This document shows positions 22,695-51,534 of a DNA stretch of 64,000 nucleotides, piece by piece. A model generated the notes under the pieces. The model had not been told where the DNA came from and did no database searches. It saw only the letters and a list, made by a program, of their open reading frames with translations. The position numbers were made by a program, and so were the translations under genes. The DNA comes from Gymnopus androsaceus JB14 (Eukaryota > Basidiomycota > Agaricomycetes > Agaricales > Omphalotaceae). Position 1 is the stretch's first letter. Every line of letters begins with the position of its first letter. The DNA is taken from positions 62,001 through 126,000 of the forward strand of contig ML769440.1 in NCBI GenBank assembly GCA_009733575.1. The letters are read 5' to 3'.

Positions 22695-25600
22695 ATGTTT
22701 GCAAATTGCTCTAATTTCCTGATTGGTGGTGGTCAGTTTATCTCCCAAGCCATCACTTGTGAGAAAATTCCACAGGATAATAGTCCTTAGATCCTTCATT
22801 GATCTTGTTTCAATATGGTTTAGTAGCCACTGATGAAGAGCAGAAGATACGCACTTGGTTAAATGCTCCTGACTGCCACACCAATTTTACCACTGCTGTT
22901 AACAAGAGAGCAGTTGGTACTGGAACTTGGATTATTGAACATTCGGAATACATCAAGTGGAAAGAAAATTCAAGTATGCTATGGATCCAAGGTAAAGGTA
23001 GGTGTCGCTGAATTTCCTAGTATTTATGTTGATTGTTAATGGATGTATAGCTGGATCTGGAAAAACTATGTTGTCGTAAGCACCATGTTCCTGTTCATGG
23101 ATTAAGGATATTCTTTGACAAATTTATCTTCAAGAACCATGATTGTTGAAGACTTGTCTAATACAGCTCCAGATTCTGTATGGTATCACTACTTTGATTC
23201 TCGTGATAATTCCGGCATCAAAACCACATTTCGGGGATTCCTGCTTTCTCTTGTGCAACAGATGGGCTGCTATGATCAGTGTATTCCATCCCTCTTTGCA
23301 GAAGTTGTATGGGTCTTGCAAGAAGGGGTTATCATTTGCACCACCCACTGATATGGAACTGAAGATGACTTTGAGACAGATCATGGAGGGTTTTCCCATG
23401 TGGATATATCATGGTGGATGCCATGGATGAGTGCCTTGAAACTGCTGAAGTGATTGAATGGCTTGCAGATATTAACCAAAAGTATGGAGTTGCATTGACA
23501 AGCCGCATCTTCCCAGAAGGCAGAGCAAAAGAAATTGCACTTCAGATTACCATGGATAGTGCCTGCTCTGAAGTTGATGAAGACATTGCAACCTATTTGA
23601 AACTACAGCTGGAGCAGTGCAGTTTCAGAGGGGATTTATATAATCAGATTCTTGATACATTGCTTGGAAAATCCCATGGACAGTAAGTGCCATCTGAATA
23701 TTACTCAGGAGCTGTTATATTCATCAATAAAATTTCTAGATTTCGATGGGTTGATTGTCAATTTCGAGCTCTGAAAAGATGTGCCACGCCTAAAGCAGTG
23801 TACAATGCATTGCAAAAACTTCCAAGTGACTTGGAGGAAACCTATGCATTTGCCATACAACAAGCAAAAGAGAGTGATCACAGTGATGATGTACATCACC
23901 TTCTTCTGTGGCTTCTCTATGCTTTTGAGCCCTTGCACATTGACCAAATTGAGGATATCCTGGCCATTGATTTAAAGCAACAACATGTTAACCAAAGACA
24001 TCAAATGAAATTGAAGTTGCATGTCCTAATTGACTCAACCCTGGTCATGGTGGACACAAATAATATTGTACAGCTGGCGCACAGTTCAGTGCGGGAATTC
24101 CTGATTGGGAGCCCAACTGAAATCCAGACAAAGAACTTATTTGAGATTAATCATAAGCTAGCTCATGAAACACTGGGTCAGGCATGTATCATCTATGTCA
24201 TCAGTCTGAGCAATGAGGAAACATATGCTGTGGATGTGCCTAGTAATTTACCGCTGGAGAAATATGCAGCACTCTATTGGCCATACCACATAAAAGAAGT
24301 AGAAGATCCTGAAAGTGCAGTGTGCAATCTAATGAGACATCTTTTGAAAGATGGGAGTCCCCAGTTCAAGAAATGGGTTTCCATGTCCAAGTACTATAGG
24401 AGGCCCTGGACTAGTTGGAGTCTGGAAAGCAAATCATATCCAGGATCAAGGCCAATCTACTATGCCTCAAAGTTTGGTCTTTTAAGAAGTGTACAAGAAC
24501 TGATAGAGAGTGGCACCAATATAGATACTGCAGGGGGAAAATATGGAAACAGCCTGCAGGTATCAGCGTATCAAGGCCATAAACCAGTTGTTGAATTGCT
24601 CTTGAAAAGTGGAGTAGATGTCAATGCATTGGGTGGAGTGTATGGCCACTCTCTTCAGGCAGCAGCATGTTCATTGAAGGAGACTACAGCAGTGGTCAAT
24701 ATCCTTCTTGCACATGGTGCAGATGTCAATGCACAGGGTGGAGTGTATGGAAGTGCACTGCAAGCAGCAGCATATCATGGTAATGAATCTGTTGTGGAAT
24801 TACTTTTAAACCATGGCGCAGACGTCAATGCCCAGGGCGGGGAGTATGGAAATGCACTTCAGGCAGCAGCATATCATGAATCAGTTATTGCATTACTTTT
24901 GAAAAGTGGTGCAGATGTCAATGCCCAGGGTGGGAAGTATGGAAATGCACTTCAGGCAGTTGCATATCATGGCAATGAATCAGTCGTTGAATTACTTTTG
25001 AACCATGGTGCAAATGTCAATGCCAAAGGTGGAGAGTTTGGCAATGCTCTTCAAGCAGCAGCATGTTCTTTGAAGGAAAATACTGCAGTTGTTAAGATCC
25101 TCCTTAAGCATGGTGCAGATGTCAATGCACAGGGTGGTGTGTATGGATATGCTCTTCAGGCAGCAGCATGTTCTTTGAAAGAAACTACTGCAGTTGTGGA
25201 GATCCTCCTTGAACATGGTGCAGATGTCAATGCTCAGGGTGGAGAATATGGAAATGCACTTCAGGCAGCAGCTTATGATGGCAATGAATCAGTTATTGAA
25301 TTACTTTTGAGCAGTGGTGCAAATGTCAATGCTCAGGGTAGAGAATATGGAAGTGCACTTCAGGCAGCTGCATATGATGGTTATGAATCAGTTATTAAAT
25401 TACTTTTAAACAATGCTGCAGATGTCAATGCTCAGGGTGGAGAATATGGAAATGCACTTCAAGCAGCAGCATATCATGGTCATGAATCAGTTGTTCAATT
25501 GCTTTTGAACAGTGGAGCAGATGTCAATGCCCAGGGTGGGAAATATGGAAACGCTCTACAGGCAGCTGCATATGAGGGCAATCAATCAATTGTTGAATTA

Positions 25601-25894
25601 CTTTTGAACCGTGGCGCAGATGTCAGTGCCCAGGGTGGGAAGTATGGAAATGCTCTGCATGCAGCAGCATGTTCCTTGAAGGAAAATACAACAGTGGAGA
25701 AGATTCTTCTTGAACACGGCGCCAATATTAATCACAAGGGTGGAGAGTATGGAAATCATCATACAAATGTGTGTAAAATATGTCAGGCATCAGCACATTA
25801 TGGTGAAGAATTCAAATTATTTCTAAGGAATGGGGCAGAGGTGGTGGAATCTAGGGTTTCAAGCTATGCCCATACCTTGATGGAACAACTGTAA
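22695..25894 (+). pseudogene. NACHT-ankyrin STAND protein, frame disrupted
   Basis: Fungal NLR-like architecture. The short N-terminal exon begins M-F-A-N-C-S-N-F and is followed by a stop-containing stretch (22785-22815) that I cannot resolve. A NACHT ATPase follows: Walker A G-K-A-G-S-G-K-T is split by an intron (22998-23050), with another intron at 23076-23134, and Walker B reads M-V-D-A-M-D-E-C at about 23411. The conserved order needs frame changes near 23290 and just before 23411, with no room for introns. An intron 23683-23739 restores F-R-W-V-D-C-Q. The winged-helix-like part leads to about 13-14 ankyrin repeats (24460-25800) of 33 or 35 residues with the core G-N-A-L-Q-A-A-A-Y and G-A-D-V-N-A-Q. 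The family acts in cytosolic nonself recognition. If the frameshifts are real this copy cannot make a working NACHT domain. A separate C-terminal ankyrin product from the 23740-25894 frame is possible. Confidence 0.8.
24520..25760 (+). repeat. Homogenised ankyrin-repeat coding array
   Basis: About 12 in-frame units of 99 or 105 bp with high nucleotide similarity. Units alternate between a 33-residue type (A-Y-H-G-N-E-S-V-V-E-L-L-L) and a 35-residue type (A-C-S-L-K-E-T-T-A-V-V). One unit (near 24870) lacks two residues. This pattern fits unequal exchange within the array. Confidence 0.85.
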
Positions 25895-29360: not shown

Positions 29361-32300
29361 ATGGACCAACAAAATCCCACTCAAAACGCAGCGGCAGCGA
29401 CACCGAAACCGCGTCGACCATTGCCTCATACGCCTGCAGCTTCACCAATGCCACCTGCGCGACCTAATACTCCAATCTCAATCACTCCACCGTTACCTGC
29501 TCGACCGCATACACCGTTGGCTGTCAATCCGAGTTCGAGTCCAAATTTGGGTTCGAGGCCTGCGACGCCTACGCCGACGGCTAATAATCCAATCTCTCAA
29601 ATGCAGCCTTCTACGATGTCCAATCCAGTTTCATACGCTTCAGCAGCTTCTGGCTCTTCTTCCTCACATACGCCAATCCCGCCTTCATCTTTCTACGGTT
29701 CCAAGTCAACTAAAACGGCCTACAATCCAGTACCAGTACGTATACCTGGTAGTGATGCGTGGGGGATACCAGTGGACAACGACGGATCCTCAGACTCGCA
29801 TACGCCAATCCCGCCTTCATCTTTCTACGGCTCCAAGTCAACTAAAACGGCCTACATGCCAGTACCAGTACGTATACCTGGTAGTGATGCGTGGGGGATA
29901 CCAGTGAACAACGACGGATCCTCAGACGACGATGACGATGAAGTTCCACCGATGACTGACGCCGACGCTATAGAGGATACCGACTATCTGACTGTTGGAC
30001 CGCCGATCGGTACGAATACATGGTGGGGAAATCAGAGTGGGTCGACGGACTATGGCGGAGGAGTCTGGGATAACAATGCGAATGCGAATATCGGAAATGG
30101 GAATTGGGACACGGATACTGGCCAATGGGAAGATCATACTATGTTCGCTGATTTTGGCAAGGTGGATGAGAATGATACGATGAATTTGGTTCCTATCGAT
30201 GGGAGGAAGGAGGAGGAGGAGGAATCTTGGTGGGAGAAGGACAAGTTTGTCACATTAGGCCCAGGACTCCTGCCTCCAGTCCTTGCAAACCAGATCCACG
30301 ATCCAGAACATACTTTGTTCGAGGTAATCGTTAGGATTCCGGATATTAAACCTTCCAGTCAGGGCTCAACTAAATCCACTCGCGACCCACCTCCAGCGCC
30401 GACGTCTGAAAAACCGCCTCATGGGTCGAGGTTGCCTAGTTCTACTTCTACTTTGGAAGCCACCGGTAAAGGTGAACTTGGCACGCACATCCCTCCAACT
30501 CCATCCCAAATTCTCGGAGCTGTCCCGCACCCAAAAGCGTATTATTGTCCAAAGGATGATTGTTGGGTTATTTTCGAGGCTTCTGTGGGTGTTCCGCCGT
30601 TGAGGAAAGACTTTGATTCGAGAGGAGAAGTGTTGCCGGATATTGAGAGGAGGTTAAAAACGGAGAGTTGTGTTCCGAATCCTGGTACGACTTGCTTTCT
30701 TATATCGCTTTATTTTGCATTACTAACCAATCCTAGGTTCGACAGGAGCAGAAACAAAACCCAAAAACAAAACCCACCACTTCCACTACTACCCTCGTGC
30801 TGTACCTGCCAGCAAGGCGCTGGATCCGCCGTTTAGGAGAGGCGTATGGGAGAATGCGAGTCCGAGTCAGGGCACGACTGCGTCTACGAATCCTTTGATC
30901 TCGATTTCACGTTCCACTTCCACTTCGTCAACAGCCGCAGGAGAAACGGAAGCGGAGGCGGAAGCTATGGAAGTCGTTACCGAGGACCAAGCCGAGGCTT
31001 CTGGAGGAACTGCTGAGGATGTCCAAGACGAAAACGAAAACGACCTCCTCCTCGATCTATATATCTGCTGTCAATGTTCCGTCTATTGTGTTGTTTCTCC
31101 GAGCCCGAGTTCTTCTACCTCTCCGCCCGTTGCCTCCTCAGATTTAGGCTCCACGATTCTCCCTCCTTCCGCACCCTTATCTGACTCCTCCTCAGAACCC
31201 ACCTCCGTCAGCAAAAGCAAAGGAAGCGCGCGCGGCATCCCCCCCGTAATCCCTCCCCCAATCTGGTTCGCATTCATCAAAGATAGGCTTACCAACCCCA
31301 ATCCGGCGTTGATTAACCCACCCGGTAAAGACGGTGGAAGAAAGACTAGCAAGGAGTTGGGACTGGGAGGAGAGCATACATTGGTGGTTAGTTTGGAGAC
31401 GTTGTTGATGTGAGCAGCCGTGCATTCGTGCAACCCCTCCTGCGTTTATTAGTATCTTATTGAGGCAAATTCCTACAGTGTAATCCAAAACCACCTCTGG
31501 AAAGGTGAAGGTCGCAAGATCAAAGTCAACGGTCCCGGGTTCTCGAAGAGGTTGGGGTGGAATTTGGCTGCGTGAGTGTCTACTCCCCCACCTTGCTTTT
31601 TGCTTCAGTTTCTGGCTTCTTTGCGGGAGGCGACCCGCGTTGGTTTCGCTTGCATGGAGAGGTTCCTTTCTTTCATATGGTTTCGCGTTTCCTTTTCTTC
31701 ATTTGTTTGTATTATGGCGCTTCCACTTCACATTTTACTTTACGCAAAGGTCGTTTGTTTGTTCGTCAGAGTACTGACTTCCTTCCTTACCTTTCTTGTC
31801 TTGCACAGCCAACAAGTCCTCTACGCTCTCGGGTTCACATCCGAACAGCAGCATAATGAGGATATCATACTCAGGCCCCCTCTTATCGATGTTGATTTGG
31901 GCTCATCCGGGTCCGGTGCTCCTTCTCAGTCTGGGAGCCCTAATTCGTCTGATAGGGAGCGGGAAAGAACGCCTTCGAAAGCCTCGACACCGATCCCAGG
32001 GTTAGGATCAACTCCATCGACCTCGAGCTTAACAAAATCCCGCCGGAAGGGTGCCAAATCATCCTCCGAAGAGGTCGAACAGGCTCAACGTATCGGACGC
32101 GCTAACCGCGCCAAGCTGCTGCGCGCGTGGGTGGAGATTGGTGCGTGGCTGGTTGATTGGAAAAGGAGGAATGGTGAGTTGCGTTACTTGTGTGTATTGT
32201 TGTGCATTTCTTTGTGAGTGGCGAGTGGGGAGCTTTCTTCCTGTTGTTCACGTTTCGTTCGTTTGCTTTTGAACCTCCCGACTCCAACACCGACCGCCAA

Positions 32301-45810: not shown

Positions 45811-46073
45811 GTAAGTTCAAGATTAACTCTAGTCGACTTATTGAGGCCAATATTGTTGGACGAGGAGGTCAAAGCGTAACTTTGTAAGTGATCGAGCCTC
45901 GTCCGGGGATTAACATTGCCGGACAATATACCTTTTTCCTTGTTTCTCTAGTTACGAATTTCTTATTTCTTCATACACGTTCGGACTCCACTTCGCTCCT
46001 CCATACACGTTTTGTTACTATGTTTCGACGGACTAACTTTGCACTTACTACAATCGGTAGTTAGACACTACCG

Positions 46074-46081
46074 TATTTATA
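46074..46081 (+). promoter_or_regulatory. TATA box of copia II LTR
   Basis: TATTTATA lies 29 bp before the CCCTCAGT arm, so the predicted transcription start falls at the base of the hairpin, as in copia I. Confidence 0.6.
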
Positions 46082-46142
46082 CACAGACCTTTCGTCACAG
46101 CGCCCTCAGTCTTTTGACACCTTACTCGTGTCTGTACTGAGG

Positions 46143-46198
46143 GTGAGCTTATTTTACTTTTTACACCTGTTCATCAAGCTAATTGTACTTTACTATAG
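46143..46198 (+). other. Predicted 56-nt leader intron in copia II LTR
   Basis: GTGAGC donor, CTAAT (CTAAC in array copies) branch-like site and ACTATAG acceptor span 56 nt. In the second leader copy of the same LTR (46235-46295) the sequence passes directly from ACTGAGG (ending 46269) to TTTAACG (46270), removing precisely this interval. That is internal evidence that the intron is spliced. Confidence 0.8.
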
Positions 46199-46365
46199 TT
46201 TAACGTACTTACACGATTAACAGGTATTTAATAGAGTCTTTTGACACCTTACTTGTGTCCGAACTGAGGTTTAACGTACTTACACGATTAACAGGTTATA
46301 GGCCCCCGTGTTGCTTATTTCAAACCTACCTCTAGACTCAGATTCTATCCTTACATCTTGAAACC

Positions 46366-46824: not shown

Positions 46825-47436
46825 ATTAAAATAAAGCCCGACAACTTGTCATAGGCACATTTTAATATTTGCGACAGCTATATAGAGCCTACAGTACTGA
46901 CAGGGGAACCCTAACCATAGTATGATAAGATGGGGCCATATCTCGGGAACTAGGGGCCGTGGGAAAAAACGGAAACGGCTACACCCCGTTATTTTCGGCC
47001 CTCTTTCCGATGGTGCTATCCATTTAACCCTAACCCCAAAAGCGAGTTATGCCAAAAAAGGAAATTTTCGCACTGTTTTGGTCAGGTCTCGTTAGGGTAA
47101 GCACAAAGTGCTTACCCTAACATAGAGACCTGATCAAAACAGTGCCAAACAAACAGTGCACATAGGTTAGGGTTAGGGTGGTTAGAGTTTAGGGGTTGAG
47201 GATAAAAATGGGGGTGTGGGGGCTTGCCCCCACTGTTATAATATTAGTCATCATTAGGGTTAGGATATGAGGTAGGGTTAGGGTTGGGTGCAGGTGACCT
47301 GTATGAGCATGAGAAAAGTGTCCTTTTTTTCCCACGGGCTCTTGTTCTCTCTGTATAGATATTATGACTTTGGTGCTGACAAGTTGTCCCAAATATTAAA
47401 ATGCACCTCCGAGAACTTGTCGGGGTTTATTTTAAT
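46825..47436. mobile_element. 612-bp MITE with telomere-like motifs inside copia II gag
   Basis: Terminal inverted repeats of about 47 bp (46825-46871 and 47390-47436) share ATTAAAATAAA, CCCGACAA and CATTTTAATATTTG. The interior has many TTAGGG/CCCTAA words (46909, 47031, 47090, 47115, 47166-47180, 47256, 47275) and a 74-bp palindrome at 47071-47144 built around GTTAGGGTAAGCAC. No coding sequence. Target duplication not resolved. Confidence 0.7.
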
Positions 47437-47841: not shown

Positions 47842-49325
47842 ACGGATACGTGTGATAATTGTGGTAGGAAGGGGCACTCGAAGCATAAGTGCTGGAGGAA
47901 AGGAGGGGGAAGTGAGGGTCAATATCCTTCTTGGTGGAGGGGTAAACGTGATCCAGCTCTTTCCATGCCGTCCTCCAACGTCGCGATAGGAAATTTCCCA
48001 CAGATATATGGTATGGCTGCTCTGTCAGCACCGGTTGAAGGGGGACTCTATGCGGACTTGGGTGCTAGTGACCACTTCTTTAGGGAGAGGTCTGATTTCC
48101 TGACATACGAGCCATGCAGTTGAAAGGGACAATCTTTGGAAAGGGGAACGAAGCTTGATATTATTGGAGTAGGAAGGGTAAAGAAAGTCCTGCTCGAAGG
48201 TGGTAAACCGGTGACGCTTATATTCAAGAATGCTCTTCACTCACTGAATATCGCTTACAACCTCATCTCAATATCTCGTCTTGACTCTCTTGGCTACACT
48301 ATCCTTTTCGGCAACGGCAGTGCCAAGTTCTACTCACCCCAAGGAACCCACTTCCTGACTGGTGTCGGTTCTGGGGGTCTCTATTGACTGAATGTACACA
48401 ATTCTCAGGCTCTTGCAGCCAGATCTCGATCCCTACATTGGCCTGTTGACCTTCAGACCTGGCATTGTTGATTTGCGCATGCTGGTACAGACCAAATCAA
48501 GCTTTTGGAGAAAGAGAAGCTGGTGGATGGACTCACCATTATGAATTCTACCCTTGACGGAAGGTGTGTAGACTGCCTTGTCGGCAAAGCTATTCGTAGG
48601 CCTTTCAATGCAAATGTTGAGACAGAGAAGGAGGTTCTGGAAAGGGTTCACACGGATTTGACCGGACCCATGAGAACCATGGCCAGGAGAGGCTACCAGT
48701 ATTCATTCCCTATGGTCGATGGTTGTTCCACGTATGGAAAGGACTACTACATGTCCAGAAAGGAATCGAGTTCTGCATTGACGTGCATGGATGCTTACAG
48801 AGTATGGGCAGAGAGGCAGACTGGGAAGAAATTGCGTTGCATTAGGATTGATGGTGGAGGCGAGTTCAAAGGAGAATGGGATGCTTGGGCTACGCACCAT
48901 GGGATTTTGCTTGAAAGAACTCCTGGGTATTCTTCAGCAGCAAATGGCGTAGGGGAGAGAAAGCATGCGATTACCTTTGCCAAAGTTTGAGCCATTCTTC
49001 ACGATTCAGGCCTTCCCCAAAACTTATGGGCTGTGGCAGCTGCATACATTGTTTATACCGAAAACCTGCTTCCATCCACGCGAAATGGAAACCGCATCCC
49101 TGCTGAAGTCTTCCTGGGCAAATGGCAAGATGTTTCACATCTTCGCCCATTCGGTGCGAGGGCTTGGGTGACAATTGTTAATGGGAAACCAGGGAAGACA
49201 GATCCGAGAGCATTGGAGGGAAAGATGGTTGGATATATGGCGAGGGGAGTTTACTTGATCTACTTGCCGACCGGTGCCATTATTCAGAGCAGGGATGTCG
49301 TTTTGAGGAGGGTTGCCCTAATCAT
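47842..49325 (+). pseudogene. Copia II zinc knuckle, protease and integrase remnant
   Basis: One frame interrupted by TGA at 48121, 48385, 48469 and 48988. In order: CCHC knuckle C-D-N-C-G-R-K-G-H-S-K-H-K-C, protease site A-D-L-G-A-S-D-H-F where the family has D-S-G (TTG at 48058-48060 instead of a Ser codon such as TCG), HHCC region (T-W-H ... C-V-D-C), and integrase core with T-D-L-T-G, I-R-I-D-G-G-G-E-F and N-G-V-G-E-R intact. A shift near 49320 moves to the reverse transcriptase frame. Not functional as it stands. Confidence 0.85.
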
Positions 49326-51258
49326 ACACTGTCGGTTGAAGGGGAGGATGACAGTCAAGGAGAAGAACATGTTGATTCAACTGACATCAATGTAAACCCC
49401 GGTATCTCCATCACCGATCAAATCTTCCTTCCTGATGCCAATCAAATCATTCCCAGTTCCTTGACATCAGACCAGGTTCTCGATCAAACGACTCTGGACA
49501 AACCTCCTCCTCTAATGCCTCCCCCTCTCATTGAAGCACGCCAATCTCCTCGACACCACTCTGGTCCACCGGTGCTCGTTCCACCTCATCAACCTCGTTC
49601 CCGCAAACCTAAAGCCATGTTGGCTACCCTGGCAGATGACCTAAACGAAGCAGGTACTGAATATAATACTGCACTTGTTGCAATTGGCATACCTCCTGTC
49701 CCGAAGACTTACAGACAGGCCATGGAAGATCCAAAACAATGGACAGCGGCAATCAAGAAGGAGAAAACCAGGATGGCGGAATTCAGTGTTTTTGGGCTGC
49801 TTCAAGATCCTCCTCCTGGCGCTACCATTCTTTTTCCATTATACGTATTTGCCCATAAACTCAATGGAGAAGGGGAAATTATTGAGGAGAAATGCAGGAT
49901 AGTGGTAAACAGCGGTACTCAGACGGAGGGATGCGACTACTTCGAGACTTTTGCTGCAGTCATGTGTTTCGAATCGTTCCGGATACTCCTCGCTCTATGG
50001 GTCAAACTCGATTACATTATCTGGCAAATTGATTTTGCATCTGCCTACCTGAACGCTGATCTCGAGGAAGAACTTTACGCTTGGCCACCTGAGGGATGGG
50101 AAGGATATTGGTCAGGAAAGGTGATGAGGATTAAGAAGTTGATTTACGGGATGATGCAGGCTGGATGAAACTGGTGGGAGACTTTGGACGCGTCATACCA
50201 GGAAATGGGTTATCGAAGGTTGCAAGCAGACCAGTGCATCAGGAGTCGAGTGTCGGAGACAGGGGAGATGATAACGGGGACGTATACGGATGACACCTTA
50301 GGGGGTTCATCAAACATTCAGGAGATGGAAAAGGCAAAGAAGGAGATCGGGGAGAAATACCGTATTAAAGAGACGGACAGCATTCAGTTTGCTCTTGGAA
50401 TTCGTCTCATTCATGACAAGGCTGCGGGTCGTGTCTCGCTCTCCATGGAATCCTACTTTGAACGTATGCTTGCACGGTATGACCTTGAAGGTCTCAAACC
50501 GAAATCAACCCCTCTCCCTTCAGGTCTCTCACTCTTGACGAATCAATCTCCTCAGACTGAGGAGGAACGCCATTTCATGCGCAACAAACCTTATTGCGAA
50601 ATTGTGGGAGCACTCCTCTTTGCCGCCGCCACATGCAGACCTGACATTGCTCAAGCTATAAACACTCTTAGTCAATTTACTGGCAACCCTGGACGAGTGC
50701 ACTGGAACGCACTCATCCATCTCCTCCGATATATCACTGGCACCAAATCCTATTCAATCGTTTATTCACGCGACGCTCCCAGAGGTATTGAACCAGTTAC
50801 ATATGTCGATGCCGACTATGCTGCGTGCATAGATACTTGACGATCTACAACTGGTATCCTAACTATGATGGCAGGGGGAGCGACGTTTTGGCAGTCCAAA
50901 CGACGGGATGTCATAGCTCTCTCAACAACTGAGGTGGAGTATATGGCATTGGCAAAAGGAGCTCAGCAGGCATGATGGGTTTATAATTTCCTTGCCGAAA
51001 TTGGGCACGGAGTCTCTCTCCCATCTCTTCTCAGGGCTGACAACAAGAGTGCAATCGCTATATCCAAAAATCCTAAATTCCACTCTAGGGTCAAGCACAT
51101 TGACATTTGTTTCCATTATCTCCGTGATGCAGTGAAGTCAGGGGAGCTCAAAGTGGAGTATATTCCCTCGGAGGACAACCCTGCTGATATCCTCACTAAA
51201 CCCCTTGGAACTACCCTTCATCGTTGCCAAAGTCGGTCTTCTCCAGCTCGAGGTTGAA
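49326..51258 (+). pseudogene. Copia II reverse transcriptase and RNase H remnant
   Basis: One frame with TGA stops at 50166, 50838 and 50973. The reverse transcriptase shows W-T-A-A-I-K-K-E, Q-I-D-F-A-S-A-Y-L-N-A, K-L-I-Y-G-M-M-Q-A-G and an intact Y-T-D-D catalytic box (50283-50294). The RNase H part shows Y-V-D-A-D-Y-A-A, L-S-T-T-E-V-E-Y-M-A and R-A-D-N-K-S-A-I-A, then K-H-I-D-I and N-P-A-D-I-L-T-K-P-L-G. The frame shifts near 51225 at the extreme C terminus. A purine tract GCTAGGGGAG precedes the 3' LTR. Confidence 0.87.
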
Positions 51259-51280
51259 TCCCCAGACGAAGCTAGGGGAG

Positions 51281-51534
51281 TGTTGGACGAGGAGGTCAAA
51301 GCGTAACTTTGTAAGTGATTGAGCCTCGTCCGGGGATTAACACCGCCGGACAATATACCTTTTTCCTTGTTTCTCTAGTTACAAATTTCTTATTTCTTCA
51401 TACACGTTCGGACTCCACTTCGCTCCTCCATACACATTTTGTTACTATGTTTCAATGGACTAACTTTGCACTTACTATGATCAGTAGTTAGACACTACCG
51501 TATTTATACACGGACCTTTCATCACAGCACCCTC
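51281..51534 (+). mobile_element. Copia II 3' LTR, unique part
   Basis: TGTTGGACG start identical to the 5' LTR, followed by U3 with the TATTTATA promoter. From 51535 the LTR passes without a break into the 127-bp satellite, so its 3' end and target duplication are not visible. The hairpin is kept for the first unit only (51530-51537 with 51563-51570). Confidence 0.85.

Follow-up and report, generated by a model that had tools for sequence, protein, structure and literature searches.

In HIV-2 and SIV, the leader contains a small intron within R-U5, and to our knowledge no spliced copy of this leader is stored in the LTR. For LTR retrotransposons, the accessible parts of the literature describe functional introns in Ogre and EVADE, which yield spliced subgenomic RNA (PMC12786077), and an intron with a spliced subgenomic RNA in BARE (PMC3735527). 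Penelope-like elements keep their introns and occur as partial tandems with pLTRs (PMC3846280), and the Ogre tandem repeats of Lathyrus are a case in which a short repeat of an LTR element expanded to a long array (PMC7004042). As for the priming of reverse transcription, copia is described as using half-tRNA priming, and Ty5 internal initiator-tRNA priming (PMC5371799). A lentiviral vector with leader introns (PMC5542766) is, as far as its accessible text goes, not relevant to the present subject, and the same holds for PMC2657110. In the literature on introns of LTRs and leaders, represented mostly by journals open without subscription, no LTR was found that holds an intron together with its spliced copy.

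An intron located upstream of the primer site should be lost in the first reverse transcription of spliced RNA. In the LTRs described here such an intron is nevertheless kept, in 15 diverged families, and the sequences suggest that spliced RNA has repeatedly been turned back into LTR. The starting point is the window, that is, the whole stretch of 64,000 nucleotides that was analysed, which corresponds to positions 62001-126000 of the contig termed C58 here (C58:62001-126000). The assembly, which comprises 83 Mb in 934 contigs, is the genome that was searched for relatives.

The element and its 5′ LTR

The element in the window is a decayed Ty1/copia LTR retrotransposon. The order of its domains is that of Copia elements, with the integrase N-terminal to a reverse transcriptase of the RVT_2 type: the integrase core rve (48472-48990, forward strand) scores 31.2 bits in an open stretch of the broken pol, just under the gathering score of 32.6, and is followed by a profile match to SH3_retrovirus (48991-49395) and by RVT_2 (49182-50840, forward strand), the latter in two open stretches with a stop between them. 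When one open reverse transcriptase stretch served as query, 7 proteins were retrieved at E <= 1e-20. An intact gag-pol was not found, as stops and frame changes break pol into several stretches, and it is for this reason that the copy is considered decayed. The LTRs have the features of Copia LTRs, namely ends of the TG..CA type, a 5-bp target-site duplication, a primer site and a polypurine tract, the last of which reads AGGGGAG (51274-51280, forward strand); the 5′ LTR has the ends TGTTGG..AACA, and the terminus of the 3′ LTR is altered to GA. Since AATAT stands before the 5′ LTR (45849-45853, forward strand) and again directly after the 3′ LTR, beyond the window (C58:139375-139379), the element represents a real insertion. 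By eye, the gag region also appears to be interrupted by telomere-like CCCTAA/TTAGGG stretches (about 46880-47190) and an inverted repeat (about 47070-47150), which together resemble a small palindromic insertion. Elsewhere in the window there are about eleven 99-bp tandem repeats (24531-25756), putatively an ankyrin-like coding repeat as judged by eye, and a 132-bp unit in tandem duplicate with 96% identity (29663-29927).

The 5′ LTR measures 440 bp (TGTTGG...TTAACA, 45854-46293; this and all further features of this LTR are on the forward strand), and its last 186 bp have the plan A - intron - B - linker - A′ - B′. The first exon, A (46108-46142), opens with the predicted RNA start, A46108, in the initiator-like context TC/AGTC; the TATA box TATTTATA (46074-46081) lies at -34 to -27 relative to this start, and CGCCCTC (46101-46107), immediately 5′ of it, shows complementarity to the sequence around the 5′ splice site. 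Intron 1 has 56 nt (46143-46198), begins with GTGAGC, contains CTAAT (46179-46183) and ends with TATAG. It is followed by the second exon, B (46199-46222), by the linker GGTATTTAATAG (46223-46234), by the intronless A′ (46235-46269) and by B′ (46270-46293), which is the LTR terminus. Directly behind it stands the primer binding site GGTTATAGGCCCCC (46294-46307). An initiator-tRNA-like string, searched for with a pattern which we take to represent it, occurs at two genome sites, both being pattern matches to a putative tRNA; 12 nt of this string form the complement of GGTTATGGGCCC, which is the primer site in many related LTRs, and the site of the window LTR differs from the complement by one mismatch.

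A reading made earlier from the sequence alone had noted two leader copies 127 bp apart, the second lacking exactly a 56-nt interval, and both observations are borne out. The copies start at 46108 and 46235, and their alignment shows a single gap of 56 nt (46143-46198), with three substitutions in A and none in B. Patterns derived from A and from B each have 100 matches in the window versus 0 in 100 shuffles, so that chance can be excluded for the leader repeats. Because the boundary slides by one G, the GT-AG ends are one of two equivalent placements in the single pair that the window offers.

Relatives in the genome

A genome search with the window LTR gave at least 40 matches, and four further queries with LTR ends gave at least 21, 39, 39 and 18, the sets overlapping. 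Fifty-seven loci were passed to a parser that required a GTRAGY donor. Forty-three of them have the full form A-intron-B-linker-A′-B′, fall into 15 diverged families (clusters at 85% identity) and are the basis of the counts given below. The loci left out comprise L045, a 44th full form (A identical to A′, B to B′) that was not counted as its start motif is changed; L073, which begins at a contig start; L076, L077 and L078, which have A-intron-B without A′B′; the truncated or decayed L012, L079, L081, L096, L097 and L098; the incompletely retrieved L100 and L101; and L025, which belongs to a repeat with an A tract discussed below. Outside the parser set stood repeated places, L007 (U3-A-B), the partial or degenerate L009, L011, L014, L037, L038 and L040, and further members of the A-tract repeat (L013, L019-L024, L026-L029).

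The exact difference seen between the two copies in the window recurs in all 43 full-form LTRs. Ragged deletions in relatives would have spoken against splicing, and this part of the earlier reasoning stands with qualification: the boundary is exact in the 43, which were however picked for their full form, and among the remaining loci L096 has a ragged lesion over the A′/B′ junction and L038 a shortened first intron, while L007 (U3-A-B) and L077 and L078 (A-intron-B only) are shorter and end at repeat boundaries. In L077, L078 and perhaps L076 the LTR ends after the first B (U3-A-intron-B), and in L077 the primer site follows directly. L007 and L003 lie 11.7 kb apart in the same direction on contig C76 (C76:10409-22542). 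AATTT immediately precedes the altered LTR start of L007 and also follows L003 without a gap, so that the two probably belong to a single element whose LTRs are unequal, a short 5′ LTR (U3-A-B) and a complete 3′ LTR. A pattern for the donor has 63 matches genome-wide, which come down to 55 places once 4 overlapping and 4 palindromic matches are removed. Among them are two pattern matches resembling A plus donor, at C276:66987 and C276:67384, 397 bp apart.

The interval as a putative intron

The anatomy, its recurrence and the splice signals can be read directly from these LTRs, and they favour the earlier interpretation of the interval as an intron. All 43 acceptors are YAG and the lengths range from 50 to 63 nt; a CTRAY branch site at a fitting distance is present in 14 of 15 family representatives versus 2.2 expected on shuffling. 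The donor count of 43/43 is uninformative in this sample, given that GTRAGY was demanded by the parser. For this reason, the donor is better judged in a sample independent of it, defined by the pattern A′-B′-primer site, which has 21 matches genome-wide and none in viral contigs. An intron-bearing copy lies upstream in 20 of the 21, the exception being L007, and the donor is GTRAGY in all 20 of these LTRs chosen without a donor requirement. The interior of the intron varies among families, its ends are constant, and A′ and B′ are joined at the same point in 43/43. With GT..AG ends, a branch site and signals conserved across 15 families around a diverged interior, the interval has what is expected of a spliceosomal intron and is probably one. 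Were the 56-bp difference due to a random indel that has nothing to do with splicing, as the one-base slide of the boundary in a single pair would permit, an exact GT-AG difference would not be expected in 15 families with different intron sequences, and such an origin strikes us as exceedingly improbable.

Origin of the intronless copy

If the second copy had been inherited from a founding duplication, it should resemble the second copies of other families. The opposite is seen. Within the same LTR, the identity of A and A′ is 0.957 versus 0.780 to other families, and that of B and B′ 0.959 versus 0.665; in a permutation among the 15 representatives, 0 of 20,000 trials reached the observed likeness, for A or for B. 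Also within families, when transitions are ignored, 20 differences are counted versus a permutation mean of 55.4, and 0 of 5000 trials were as low. Copy 2 is nearest to its own copy 1, and not to copy 2 of other families, in 15/15 representatives for A and B together, in 15/15 for B and in 14/15 for A, and in a joint midpoint-rooted tree copies 1 and 2 stand together in 13 of 15 families, the families of L001 and L039 not being clades. In equal-length pairs, 95 differences were counted within LTRs, of which 65 are compatible with CpG decay since the insertion and 30 are not of the CpG type. The concerted evolution of A with A′ and of B with B′ thus points to recurrent regeneration, and the intronless copy is apparently not just passed on but remade again and again through splicing and reverse transcription.

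Splicing followed by reverse transcription, which had been proposed at the outset for the intronless copy, consequently holds as its best explanation on present sequence evidence, whereas the associated notion of a one-time end-to-end joining within one LTR is contradicted by a structure that is common to many families and whose A/A′ and B/B′ pairs evolve in concert. An account closer to that notion would place one splicing and reverse-transcription duplication in the distant past, after which unspliced genomic RNA would be packaged and the whole LTR form inherited, the intron serving translation only, with template switching or gene conversion maintaining the likeness within A/A′ and B/B′. 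One unusual event would suffice, and there is nothing unusual in the packaging of unspliced RNA; for BARE, separate pools of spliced and of packaged RNA are described in the accessible text of PMC3735527, and expansion of tandem repeats within LTR elements is known (PMC7004042, likewise in its accessible text). A T/C difference between A and A′ at position 26 of A, which has the same sense in L001, L002, L004, L005 and L008 and recurs in the 3′ LTR of the window between array unit and terminal copy, could go back to repeated CpG decay or have been inherited as a difference between A and A′, and in the latter case it would fit this account. Exchange in A, however, would never reach B′, and exchange in B would give A-intron-B or B-linker-A repeats, so that unequal exchange could homogenise A but presumably not B without altering the form; to homogenise a B′ of about 24 nt with the intron still absent should require double switches. 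B and B′ are concerted even within families, and the exact intronless form A-B-linker has 0 matches genome-wide (1 in the control), as compared with 63 for the donor pattern, the search reaching exact forms rather than decayed ones. A single ancient duplication is therefore, in our view, possible but unlikely. Tandem slippage alone fits L007, the A-intron-B forms (L077, L078, possibly L076) and the array of the 3′ LTR, but it fails on the concerted B/B′ and was rejected. That the intron is present and that the second copy is recurrently remade through spliced RNA we regard as highly probable.

A proposed splicing-coupled replication cycle

How the copy might be remade can be outlined as a cycle in which the leader is spliced twice, the cDNA lands on A′ and each round rewrites the spliced copy. 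To this cycle, in which one LTR would permanently carry an intron and its own spliced product, we give an even chance, the latter part of the reading included. RNA would start at A (46108), and its 5′ end would be spliced at intron 1 and at a second intron (linker-A′-B′), leaving A-B-primer binding site; strong-stop cDNA from such a doubly spliced leader would be a copy of A-B, and A-B only is what it must comprise if the form is to be closed under replication. The RNA 3′ end would be U3-A-intron-B-linker-A′, with intron 1 retained unspliced, and cut and polyadenylated inside A′, which would serve as R there. The cDNA of A would then pair with A′ and be extended, whereby the LTR U3-A-intron-B-linker-A-B would be rebuilt; in each round, the intron would be kept and a new spliced copy written behind it. 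The anatomy and its recurrence, the conserved splice signals, the coupled evolution, the geometry of the start site and the primer site can be read from the sequences, whereas splicing itself, intron 2, the poly(A) site in A′ and the retention of the intron at the 3′ end are inferred parts of the scheme. With regard to the earlier suggestion that the cDNA is joined to the unspliced R region, R at the RNA 3′ end is kept as the landing place, which is now changed to A′ itself as its probable position; and a blunt fusion at the joint is contradicted by the linker between the copies.

The geometry of the start site bears on the first step. The homology of A and A′ starts at AGTC, with the A of the initiator-like TC/AGTC, and in 37/43 LTRs a literal TATA stands 28-35 bp upstream of A, the six exceptions being L034, L030, L036 and L082 with TATA at -45, L083 with none and L099 with a TATA-like sequence only. 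Together, TATA and initiator place the expected RNA start at the point that corresponds to the beginning of A′, as should be the case if A′ copies the RNA 5′ end. Were the genomic RNA instead to start at A′, A-intron-B-linker would be merely U3 and a conventional cycle would close without splicing, and two TATA-driven transcript classes are indeed reported for BARE in the accessible part of PMC3735527; but TATA is found at that distance before A′ in 0/43, and the concerted B/B′ and the conserved intron signals would be left unexplained, which makes a start at A′ quite improbable.

The second splicing event of the proposed cycle would remove linker-A′-B′, which looks like a weak second intron. 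The linker starts with GGTA in 41/43 LTRs (GATA in L006, GCTA in L035), its GTA being the candidate 5′ splice site, and linker-A′-B′-G spans CAG/GTA to ACAG/G, the ACAG end being made of the LTR end and the primer site. In the window, the candidate intron 2 would have 71 nt (46224-46294; linker, A′, B′ and G) and read GTATTT...CTTAC...TTAACAG. CTNAY lies 12-20 nt before its end in 15/15 representatives versus 4.5 expected. Its donor is weak (GTANTT, no G at +5) and its branch atypical, CTTAY rather than CTRAY in 14/15, and since B = B′ the motif may instead serve the integrase, the LTR end or polyadenylation. The TANNTA of the linker could, as we presume, be a polyadenylation element.

An RNA end inside A′, the proposed R region, is favoured by a separate repeat family (L013, L019-L029), in which sequence that appears gene-like by eye is fused to an LTR ending inside A′. 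In 12/12 copies examined the LTR runs to about GTGTCYGAAC in A′ and is followed by 7-12 A, so that the repeat looks like a captured, polyadenylated chimeric transcript, representing one amplified event; its intron donor is broken in most copies, and it therefore says nothing on intron retention. As for retention at the RNA 3′ end, a hairpin switch was considered in which base pairing between CCCTC, 5′ of the start, and GAGGG, at the donor, hides the splice site of the 3′ LTR, but folding did not confirm it: donor accessibility did not differ significantly according to whether the upstream sequence was included or left out (0.25 against 0.13 in this comparison; p = 0.09, with the opposite direction in 5/15), the comparison with shuffled upstream sequence gave p = 0.055, and the -7/+3 pairing in 11/15 representatives is at the level of shuffled sequences (mean 10.0).

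The 3′ LTR and its array

The 3′ LTR, from 51281, has the same plan as the 5′ LTR. Its U3 (51281-51534, forward strand) differs from that of the 5′ LTR over 254 bp by 13 transitions and 0 transversions. Thereafter, identical 127-bp units of A-intron-B-linker occupy the forward strand from 51535 to the end of the window (64000), which contains 98 complete units, and continue to C58:139315, where they are followed by the terminal intronless A′B′ (C58:139316-139374, beyond the window). The array thus has 203 units and 25.8 kb, about half of it beyond the window. The 203 units show zero differences among themselves, and 6/127 bases differ between the unit and the corresponding sequence of the 5′ LTR, a rate close to that of U3 (13/254). 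Given that the divergence resembles that of U3 while the units are identical, either the array expanded after insertion or the assembler filled it; it accordingly results either from later amplification at the DNA level or from the assembly. As assembled, a long homogeneous array derived from an element, such as defines an LTR-derived satellite, is present at one locus.

Comparison with known systems

The small leader intron inside R-U5 recalls that of HIV-2 and SIV. If the proposed cycle is true, U3, R and U5 would be defined by splicing besides start and poly(A) sites, and the cycle would explain in a natural way how a retroelement can keep an intron. With the Ty1/copia elements that use half-tRNA(iMet) priming (Drosophila copia, yeast Ty5), the element shares an integrase located before RVT_2, an LTR of the TG..CA type, a 5-bp target-site duplication and a primer site complementary to an initiator-tRNA-like anticodon region; it differs from them in having an intron and an intronless copy inside the LTR, as judged from the accessible text of PMC5371799. 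The introns of Ogre, EVADE and BARE are reported for subgenomic RNAs, and the accessible parts of PMC12786077 and PMC3735527 mention no intronless twin in the LTR. Penelope-like elements differ by another class of reverse transcriptase and another insertion mechanism. The array is possibly a young LTR-derived satellite, and the build of these LTRs may supply tandem repeats that grow into satellite arrays. In comparison with the Ogre repeats of Lathyrus, which are located in the 3′ untranslated region, the unit is here promoter-proximal, carries the putative intron and has expanded at one locus.
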